Shown here in pieces: positions 2,362 through 7,715 of a stretch of 64,000 bases of DNA (positions are counted from its first letter, which is position 1; every line of letters starts with the position of its first letter). Under the pieces are notes generated by a model. It ran no database searches, was not told the DNA's origin, and was given only the letters and a program-made list of their open reading frames with translations. The position numbers and the translations under genes are program-made. The stretch comes from Poseidonocella sedimentorum (GTDB lineage: Bacteria; Pseudomonadota; Alphaproteobacteria; Rhodobacterales; Rhodobacteraceae). The stretch covers positions 1-64,000 of the forward strand of contig NZ_FOYI01000005.1 of NCBI RefSeq assembly GCF_900116005.1, read 5' to 3'.

Positions 2362-2392
2362 TGTGATCACATAAAAAAATCATGTGATCACA
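2362..2392. promoter_or_regulatory. Tandem TGTGATCACA operators upstream of sucC
   Basis: Two perfect 10-bp palindromes TGTGATCACA lie at 2362-2371 and 2383-2392, with centres exactly 21 bp apart (two helical turns). The nearer one is about 112 nt from the sucC ATG. An equivalent pair with the same spacing precedes sdhC. The 357-bp mdh-sucC gap (2255-2611) otherwise shows only a hairpin next to the mdh stop. The binding regulator is unknown. Confidence 0.75.
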
Positions 2393-2579
2393 AAAGCTGA
2401 CGAGAGGGAAGGAATGGGCGAAGAGCGAGGGGGAATCGCACGGAATTTCGGAAAAATTGCCTCAACCCGTGGGGAGGCGAGATGCGTTTGAGCGTCTCGG
2501 GGCCGGCTTGATGCGCGCGGAGGCGAGGACCGGTTGAAGCGCCAGCGGCCTGGTTGCCGCTGACGGTCTGTTTCAGTGC

Positions 2580-2605
2580 TGCCCCGGCGCGCTGCGCTCG
2601 GGGCA
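2580..2605 (-). terminator. Hairpin after mdh, possible weak terminator
   Basis: TGCCCCG at 2580-2586 pairs with CGGGGCA at 2599-2605, starting a few bases after the mdh stop codon. The loop is GC-rich. There is no clear T-tract on the minus strand, so termination may be partial or Rho-assisted. Confidence 0.4.
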
Positions 2606-2611
2606 CGCGGA

Positions 2612-3574
2612 TCAGGCGAGCGAGTCGTCGATGCCTTTGCAGGCGTCCACGAGCCCTTTGACCGCGCCCACGGAGCTGTCGAACATGGCCTGTTCTTCCT
2701 TGTCGAGCTTGATCTCGACGATCTTCTCGATCCCGCCCGCGCCGATCACGGTGGGGACACCGACGTAGAAGCCGTCGAGCCCATAGGCGCCGTCAACATA
2801 GGCCGCGCAGGGCAGGACGCGCTTTTGGTCCTTGAGATAGGCTTCGGCCATTTCGATGGCGGACGCGGCGGGCGCGTAGAAGGCCGAGCCGGTCTTGAGC
2901 AGCGAGACGATCTCGGCGCCGCCATCGCGGGTGCGCTGGACGATCGCGTCGAGCTTCTCCTGCGTGGTCCACCCCATTTTCACCAGGTCCGGCAGCGGGA
3001 TGCCGGCGACGGTCGAGTAGCGGGTCAGCGGGACCATGGTGTCGCCGTGGCCGCCGAGCACGAAGGCGGTGACGTCTTTCATGGAAACATCGAATTCCAC
3101 GCTGAGGAAATGGCGGAAGCGCGCGCTGTCGAGGATGCCCGCCATGCCGCAGACCTTCTCGTGGGGCAGGCCGGAGAATTCGCGCAGGGCCCAGACCATC
3201 GCATCGAGCGGGTTGGTGATGCAGATGACAAAGGCATCGGGCGCGTTGTCGCGGATGCCTTCACCCACCGATTTCATGACCTTGAGGTTGATGCCAAGCA
3301 GGTCGTCGCGGCTCATGCCCGGCTTGCGCGGGACGCCCGCGGTCACGATGCAGACATCCGCGCCGGCGATGTCCGAATAGGACTGGGTGCCCTTGAGACT
3401 TGCGTCAAACCCTTCGACCGGACCGGATTCGGCGATGTCGAGCGACTTGCCTTCCGGGGTGCCTTCGGCGATGTCGAAGAGAACGACGTCTCCCAATTCC
3501 TTCAGCGCGACGAGGTGCGCGAGCGTCCCGCCGATCTGTCCGGCGCCGATCAGGGCGATCTTCGGTCTGGCCAT
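2612..3574 (-). CDS. mdh: Malate dehydrogenase (NAD)
   Basis: Mdh oxidises malate to oxaloacetate in the TCA cycle. The start is taken at the ATG at 3574 ([16 protein letters not shown]), giving 320 residues, the length typical of alphaproteobacterial MDH of the LDH-like class. GAGQIGG near the N-terminus is the Rossmann nucleotide loop. [14 protein letters not shown] contains the substrate-binding loop arginines, ITNPLDAM and [13 protein letters not shown]-like segments follow, and the latter includes the catalytic histidine (GGHGD). It is the first minus-strand gene of an mdh-sucC-sucD set, separated from sucC by 357 bp. The malate made by Mcl2, encoded nearby, is its direct substrate. Confidence 0.97.
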
Positions 3575-3626
3575 GAATTTGTCTCCAGTCGAGTTTTTTT
3601 GTTCCTGCGACTGCCTAGTCCCAAAC

Positions 3627-3643
3627 CCCTTGTCTGACAAGGG
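3627..3643. promoter_or_regulatory. Palindrome in the mdh leader
   Basis: CCCTTGT (3627-3633), spacer CTG, ACAAGGG (3637-3643) form a perfect 7-bp dyad 53 nt upstream of the mdh ATG. It could be an operator for mdh or a short hairpin. There is no other copy that I noticed. Confidence 0.4.
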
Positions 3644-3728
3644 CGCCGCGCCGCGGCATCCGCCACGCGCCCTCTCGCAAACCCCGGCGAACTAGTCTAA
3701 GTGACGGGGAGGACGATATTTTCCAAGT

Positions 3729-4502
3729 GTGCCCCCCGTGATCGAGACAAACCTGAGCTTTTTGATGGTAGCGATACCAGCGGTTGCCTTTGCGGGGCTG
3801 TCGAAAGCCGGCCTCGGCGGCGGCGCGGCCTTTGTCTCGTCATCGATTCTGGCGCTGGTGCTTGAGCCGGGGGAGGCTCTTGGCATCATGTTGCCGCTGT
3901 TGATGCTGGCGGATGTGTTTTCGCTCAAACCCTATTGGAAGCGCTGGAACTGGCCCGCGTCCAGGCTGCTCATCATCGGCGCGGTGCCGGGGATAGGGCT
4001 TGGCGGCTGGCTCTACACGATGGTGGATGCCGATAGCATCCGCCTGCTGATCGGGGTGATCTGCGTTGCGTTCGTGCTGTGGCAGGTGGGGGTCCGCCCG
4101 GCGCTCGCCCACCACGGATCACGCGCGGCGCCCGACTGGGTCGGGCTCTTGGCGGGGGTCATGGCAGGGTTCACCAGTTTCGTCAGTCACGCCGGCGGGC
4201 CGCCTGTGGCCGCCTACATGCTTTCGCAGAACCCGGAAAAAACCGAGTACCAGGCGACAACGGTGCTGGTGTTCTGGGTTGTGAACGCGGTGAAGTTCAT
4301 CCCCTACGCGTTTCTGGGGATGTTCACGCTGGAGACCTTGCGGGTCGACCTCATTCTCGCCCCCTTCATGGTGCTGGGGGTCTGGGCCGGTGTGAAGCTG
4401 CACCGCGCCGTGCCGTCGGGGCCGTTCTTTGCCCTGACCTATCTCCTGCTTGCGGTGACAGGTCTGCGGTTGATCTGGCTCGGGCTGAGCCAGACCCCTT
4501 AA
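3729..4502 (+). CDS. TauE/SafE-family membrane permease
   Basis: This is a 257-residue polytopic membrane protein of the TauE/SafE (DUF81) family, whose members are proposed to export sulfite, sulfoacetate or other organic anions. The family glycine-rich motif near the N-terminus is seen as GLSKAGLGGGAAFVSSS, and the second repeat half carries GFTSFVSHAGGPPVAAYML. About seven to eight hydrophobic segments are visible. The start is a GTG at 3729 with GGGGAGG about 15 nt upstream; a second GTG at 3738 is possible. Its stop overlaps the stop of the convergent downstream gene. The substrate cannot be inferred from the neighbours. Confidence 0.85.
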   Translation: MPPVIETNLSFLMVAIPAVAFAGLSKAGLGGGAAFVSSSILALVLEPGEALGIMLPLLMLADVFSLKPYWKRWNWPASRLLIIGAVPGIGLGGWLYTMVDADSIRLLIGVICVAFVLWQVGVRPALAHHGSRAAPDWVGLLAGVMAGFTSFVSHAGGPPVAAYMLSQNPEKTEYQATTVLVFWVVNAVKFIPYAFLGMFTLETLRVDLILAPFMVLGVWAGVKLHRAVPSGPFFALTYLLLAVTGLRLIWLGLSQTP

Positions 4503-7238: not shown

Positions 7239-7259
7239 CGCTGAATGGAGACAGGCTTT

Positions 7260-7270
7260 TTCTGCACTGC
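7260..7270 (+). promoter_or_regulatory. TTCTGCACTGC motif, copy 1
   Basis: The 11-mer TTCTGCACTGC lies 22 nt after the mch stop and 108 nt before the ATG of the 65-aa gene. Here it extends into a near-perfect dyad TTCTGCA-C-TGCAGAG. The same 11-mer occurs before sdhC and before ccr. Confidence 0.45.
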
Positions 7271-7377
7271 AGAGAATTCTGTCTTGGAAAAAAAGGGAAT
7301 CGCGGTATTGTATTCGCGGTTCTGCGACGATTGGACTACGTCGTGGGGCGACCTTTGAATTGGGGGAAGGTCAAACG

Positions 7378-7575
7378 ATGAAAACATATCCTACGTCGAC
7401 GCTCGAGGTGCTGTCAGTGCCCAATGAGCAAGTTTCGGACCTGGTGCGCTCTATGACTGCCGATCGCAGTTTCAGTTCGCTGGTCCATTCCATTAACGAG
7501 GACCTGATGGGGCGGGATCGGCAAAAGCGAGAGCTTGCCCGCAATGCCCTGAGCCATCTGGGGTTTGTCGAGTAA
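7378..7575 (+). CDS. 65-aa protein of unknown function
   Basis: The ATG at 7378 is preceded by a strong purine-rich site (GGGGGAAGG), and the 65-residue product starts MKTYPTSTLEVLSVPNEQ. The C-terminal half (LVHSINEDLMGRDRQKREL) is charged and predicted helical. There are no cysteines, membrane segments or signal peptide. A longer frame running back to 7210 overlaps mch and has no ribosome-binding site, so it is rejected. A Rho-independent terminator follows directly and a promoter-like motif precedes it, so it looks like an independent transcription unit. I do not recognise the family. Confidence 0.75.
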   Translation: MKTYPTSTLEVLSVPNEQVSDLVRSMTADRSFSSLVHSINEDLMGRDRQKRELARNALSHLGFVE

Positions 7576-7626
7576 GGGCCCGGCTGGACCCGACGGCGAA
7601 CTGCCCCGTAGCCTATTCTGTGATGT

Positions 7627-7661
7627 GAAGGCCGCCTGAGCGATTCTCTCGGGCGGCCTTC
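7627..7661 (+). terminator. Rho-independent terminator after the 65-aa gene
   Basis: GAAGGCCGCC (7627-7636) pairs with GGCGGCCTTC (7652-7661), followed by TGTCTTT. It separates the 65-aa gene from the sdh promoter region. Confidence 0.85.
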
Positions 7662-7684
7662 TGTCTTTAACAAGGCCTGAATCT

Positions 7685-7715
7685 TGTGATCACACGAATA
7701 ATTTGCGTGATCACA
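7685..7715. promoter_or_regulatory. Tandem TGTGATCACA operators upstream of sdhC
   Basis: TGTGATCACA at 7685-7694 and CGTGATCACA at 7706-7715 have centres 21 bp apart, the same spacing as before sucC. The nearer copy is about 117 nt upstream of the sdhC ATG, compared with about 112 nt for sucC. The likely role is shared control of TCA-cycle operons by one dimeric or tetrameric regulator. Confidence 0.75.

Follow-up and report, generated by a model that had tools for sequence, protein, structure and literature searches.

Tandem operator pairs before sucC and sdhC in Poseidonocella sedimentorum are predicted binding sites of the GntR-family regulator AkgR

In R. sphaeroides, the GntR-family protein RSP_0981 has been predicted to control the sucCD, sdh and 2-oxoglutarate dehydrogenase genes, and the accessible part of PMC4344238 gives its predicted targets as sucCD (RSP_0967-6), sdh (RSP_0974-6) and 2-oxoglutarate dehydrogenase (RSP_0965-62). 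The palindrome GTGATCAC appears among the binding sites of the transcriptional activator AkgR in the accessible part of PMC6365646, which cites Imam et al. on AkgR of R. sphaeroides. The same portion of PMC4344238 also predicts that, in R. sphaeroides, CceR (RSP_1663) acts on mdh and sdh while NtrC acts on sdh, thus AkgR need not act alone. Here we propose that two tandem pairs of this palindrome in P. sedimentorum, one before sucC and one before sdhC, are very probably operators of an AkgR orthologue, a GntR/FCD regulator encoded elsewhere in the genome and predicted to be an activator. We take AkgR and RSP_0981 to be the same protein. An earlier note on this DNA had known of no named regulator with such a site, which was mistaken, since site and targets match AkgR / RSP_0981 in the parts of the two papers available (PMC6365646, PMC4344238). 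Literature titles retrieved with TGTGATCACA included none on a bacterial operator, and among the matches listed for GTGATCAC together with 'transcriptional regulator' none was on TCA regulation by title.

The window, that is, the whole stretch of 64,000 nucleotides analysed, holds four copies of the GTGATCAC palindrome as two pairs, both of which recur before the same genes in relatives. Before sucC, the nearer AkgR-type operator lies at 2362..2371 and the farther one at 2383..2392 (both TGTGATCACA); before sdhC, the farther one lies at 7685..7694 (TGTGATCACA) and the nearer one at 7706..7715 (CGTGATCACA). None of the four is assigned a strand, the centres within each pair are 21 bp apart, and the arms of the palindromes abut with no spacer in both pairs. 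The positions and centre spacing given in the earlier note were borne out by the sequence search, and its distances of 112 nt (sucC) and 117 nt (sdhC) to the start codon match if counted from the centre of the nearer palindrome; from the operator edge, the gaps are 107 nt to the sucC ATG (complementary to 2252-2254) and 112 nt to the sdhC ATG at 7828. Its description of the two promoters as unlinked was wrong, as they are genome neighbours 5.3 kb apart. The first gene after the left pair is sucC, the succinyl-CoA ligase beta subunit (1061..2254, minus strand, NCBIfam NF001913 over cut-off), accompanied on the minus strand by sucD, the alpha subunit (69..881 in the part examined, NF004230 over cut-off), and, upstream of sucC, by the malate dehydrogenase gene mdh (2612..3574, TIGR01763 over cut-off). 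On the plus strand lie sdhC, the cytochrome b556 subunit of succinate dehydrogenase (7828..8211, TIGR02970 over cut-off), sdhD, the membrane anchor (8222..8593, named from its position and a TIGR02968 match just under cut-off, 38 vs 41.8 bits), sdhA, the flavoprotein subunit (8610..10412, TIGR01816 over cut-off), and sdhB, the iron-sulfur subunit (12416..13195, NF004616 over cut-off). Between mch and the sdhC operators there is also a 65-aa open frame (7378-7575) with 66% identity in a genome of the same genus; the longer frame at 7210-7575 gave no Pfam match.

The pair is rare in its own genome. Allowing up to one mismatch, TGTGATCACA has seven matches in the window vs 0.78 expected in shuffles, and seven were reached in none of 100 shuffles. 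Exact TGTGATCACA occurs at six sites genome-wide (3.56 Mb, 27 contigs), three of them within the two window pairs; of the others, one precedes a GntR gene on contig C6 and two fall inside long, mechanically called open frames, one within the first codons of a frame some 410 codons long (C18) and one inside a frame of about 1,000 codons (C10). The exact arrangement GTGATCAC-N13-GTGATCAC is found only twice in the genome, at the sucC and sdhC pairs, with none for the reversed-pattern control, and among 11 pairs of the looser form TGATCA-N10..20-TGATCA only these two have the window spacing. The pair is therefore not scattered over random genes of the genome; it is such scatter that the earlier note had said would speak against a shared regulon.

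Conservation was followed in 101 genomes, 61 of the family (P. sedimentorum included) and 40 from other families of the class. The exact N13 pair was present in 49 of the 61 family genomes vs 0 of the 40 others, and the reversed-pattern control gave nothing in any of the 101. Thirty-seven family genomes carry two exact pairs, 11 carry one, one (G043) carries three and 12 have none. These 49 genomes contributed 88 exact pairs and a further 31 came from 14 named genomes, which were picked from at least 80 loci listed and include Cereibacter johrii and Ruegeria pomeroyi; of the resulting 119, 63 stand before sucC, 53 before sdhC and 3 elsewhere (116/119 at sucC/sdhC). With one-mismatch pairs, a non-exhaustive collection, 125 distinct pairs were classified, 65 with sucC, 55 with sdhC and 5 elsewhere, a tally that the sucC region of Paracoccus sp. 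IB05 enters twice; three palindromes stand in a row there, spaced 20 and 21 bp (L303:665-713). Across the family, then, the pair is kept before both genes in relatives, as the earlier note had asked. The five pairs elsewhere comprise one before fumC (T4), two in coding frames of Yoonia and Leisingera that read VIT...VIT (T67, T114), and two with one mismatch each (T39, T51). The fumC pair, seen in one genus, is the third exact pair of G043 (L036:1501-1529 = G043:C16:228293-228321); 124 nt separate it from the class II fumarase gene, whose product is the next enzyme after succinate dehydrogenase. From pair to start codon the distance is mostly 104-114 nt at sucC and 98-174 nt, once 295, at sdhC. 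A search of the 14 named genomes that admitted any gap from 6 to 26 gave only N12 (5 pairs) and N13 (26 pairs), while allowing up to three mismatches in 27 genomes gave an uninformative 2 to 119 pairs per genome.

The AkgR orthologue of P. sedimentorum is a 216-aa GntR+FCD protein (PF00392, 53 bits at a cut-off of 27; PF07729 FCD, 58.1 bits at a cut-off of 24.3) encoded at G000:C6:182730-183377, on another contig than sdh, and TGTGATCACA lies 8 nt before its ATG. Exact GTGATCAC was found within 50 nt before the regulator start in 31 of the 44 orthologue upstream regions examined (30 from family-genome orthologues, 14 from the named genomes), and this exact self-site is absent in the other 13, C. 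johrii included, one of which (L219) is cut at a contig end. The earlier note had called for a search for a co-conserved regulator gene, and the AkgR orthologue does track the pairs. At 51% identity or more it is present in 51 of the 61 family genomes, and at least one pair is found in all 51 vs 1 of the 10 genomes without it; 48 of the 51 have the exact N13 form, one (G041) has one mismatch per pair and two (G010, G056) have 20-bp spacing, read by eye, the sdhC pair of G010 combining 20-bp spacing with one mismatch. These three had been candidate exceptions with a regulator and no exact N13 pair, and were dropped as such when their 20-bp or one-mismatch pairs were found. Counting exact N13 pairs alone, the orthologue occurs in 48 of 49 genomes with a pair vs 3 of 12 without (Fisher p = 1.2e-7), and all 14 named genomes carry it at 71-81% identity. 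The exception is G020, whose assembly is 91% complete: a pair precedes its sucC, a close orthologue is absent, and sdhC gave no match. In eight of the other nine family genomes lacking the orthologue, the 350 bp upstream of sucC and of sdhC contain no exact GTGATCAC; one of these eight, G018, has a one-mismatch copy before sucC. The ninth, G022, matched sucC at no more than 46% and gave nothing for sdhC, its upstream regions falling outside the comparison. Elsewhere in the class, matches to the regulator at E <= 1e-20 turned up in 4 of the 40 genomes from other families, the closest of them 38% identical.

R. sphaeroides is absent among the at least 80 loci listed, and C. johrii was used in its place. 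We assume C. johrii to be the sister of R. sphaeroides, and it was the top match, at 99%, to a PDB chain of R. sphaeroides malyl-CoA lyase. Its orthologue, 78% identical, ends about 0.7 kb from sdhB (labelled by eye), with a possible small frame between, and adjoins DUF45-type and FYDLN-type genes, which also flank the gene in P. sedimentorum (labels by eye); the two operator pairs of C. johrii lie about 5 and 10 kb from it. Next to RSP_0974-6, this is the place at which one would expect the tag RSP_0981, and the orthologue is thus tied to RSP_0981 via gene position in C. johrii, not via RSP_0981's own sequence.

The pairs before sucC and sdhC are almost certainly the predicted docking sites of AkgR. 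Upstream of each of the suc and sdh promoters, two adjacent regulator dimers would occupy the same face of the helix, separated by two turns, and would activate the promoters jointly; binding is presumably cooperative because the pair spacing is fixed. Bound AkgR would contact RNA polymerase, the FCD domain would take a carboxylic acid as ligand, and the lone palindrome directly ahead of the regulator gene would allow self-repression.

The promoter elements give this model a possible geometry. For sdhC, a putative -35 element (GTGACA, 7773..7778, plus strand) is followed 16 bp later by a putative -10 element (TAGAAC, 7795..7800, plus strand), so that transcription would begin near 7807 and the two operators would be centred near -97 and -118. 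Of 54 sdhC upstream regions, 42 contain CGTGAC and 12 lack it; in 35 of the 42 the hexamer lies 56-59 bp after the pair, and a TA-starting -10-like sequence comes about 16 bp later. Among 49 sucC regions, a weaker TT is conserved 47-48 bp beyond the pair, about one turn nearer. Of 65 sucC regions, 11 have GTTTA at 45-46 bp and 9 have TATAC at 70-72 bp, and neither was seen in the window's own. In six sdhC regions CGTGAC is shifted, to 35, 46, 48, 67, 67 and 78 bp, each roughly whole helical turns away (p about 0.008 in a Rayleigh test; by permutation, p = 0.0009 at 10.5 bp/turn and 0.02 at 10 or 11), in a post hoc test of six cases that left out L049 (CGTGAC at 213 bp, pair 295 nt from the start). 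Such whole-turn shifts favour an activator bound on one DNA face, and the centre spacing was 20 or 21 bp wherever other gaps were allowed (the 14 named genomes) and also in G010 and G056, whose pairs were read by eye. We therefore entertain, tentatively and as a reading of sequence, that AkgR may act as a dimer pair locked two helical turns apart and keeping helical phase with the core promoter; if true, this would make AkgR an FCD/GntR-type activator that works in tandem, over a long distance and in clean helical phase.

The GntR family includes many repressors, and the regulator's self-site, lying ahead of its start codon, resembles a repressor site, so that the pairs might be repressor operators rather than activator sites. 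We consider this unlikely, as about 47-58 bp separate the pairs from the inferred -35 elements downstream, helical phase is kept at sdhC, and AkgR is called a transcriptional activator in the accessible part of PMC6365646. It is very unlikely that another GntR protein or a CRP/FNR-type regulator binds the pairs and AkgR merely co-occurs with them. The genome has 18 GntR-domain matches, 17 of them over cut-off, many family genomes encode a second GntR paralogue of the FCD type at about 40% identity (here G000:C19:414133-414759, 37%), and the pair in G020 stands without a close AkgR orthologue. On the other hand, the orthologue tracks the pairs across the family, and G055, with a 40% paralogue and no close orthologue, lacks even a one-mismatch copy in the 350 bp ahead of sucC and of sdhC; the self-site also fits AkgR, as do the motif and targets in the parts of PMC6365646 and PMC4344238 available. 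The half-sites TGTGA/TCACA are reminiscent of CRP. In CRP sites 6 bp separate the two arms (TGTGA-N6-TCACA); the palindromes here have no such spacer, and a CRP/FNR-type site was rejected on that ground.

Two of the three exact pairs away from sucC and sdhC sit in the VIT...VIT frames, as would be expected of a chance or coding repeat. This origin for the pairs as a whole is negligible in probability, given exactly two exact pairs in 37 of 61 family genomes, the 116 of 119 before sucC/sdhC and the reversed control at 0 of 101; the window shuffles likewise led us to reject chance. The conserved, non-random placement instead supports the single regulator shared by sucC and sdhC that the earlier note had proposed.

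The operator pair is real, strongly conserved and explained by a described regulator, and since that regulator, like its main targets, was already in the literature, the find is largely known; the strict tandem geometry, the phasing with the promoter and the fumarase target in one genus may be new. Sequence alone supports, family-wide, one regulator tying succinyl-CoA synthetase to succinate dehydrogenase, and to the AkgR picture are added the strict pair spacing, possible helical phasing, the self-site and, in one genus, the fumarase target, which should be useful in annotating TCA regulation of Rhodobacterales. Among described systems, the CceR (RSP_1663) regulon of R. sphaeroides shares mdh and sdh as predicted targets, but CceR belongs to the LacI family and has another inverted repeat, [AGT]GTT-N6-8-AAC[ACT] (accessible part of PMC4344238). 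PS417_07240, the GntR protein of the deoxyribonate cluster of Pseudomonas simiae, is 32% identical to AkgR and has GTGATCAC near its own start codon, but serves another pathway, with one palindrome described in the portion of PMC6365646 available. Compared with the AkgR (RSP_0981) regulon of R. sphaeroides, the regulator gene of P. sedimentorum differs in lying on another contig than sdh, and the tandem 20/21-bp arrangement, like the helically phased distance to the putative sdhC -35 element, is absent from the available parts of the PMC4344238 and PMC6365646 accounts; the two share the palindrome core GTGATCAC, the target operons sucCD and sdh, with 2-oxoglutarate dehydrogenase also among the RSP_0981 targets in those parts, and an orthologous GntR/FCD regulator, whose gene in C. 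johrii is close to sdh.
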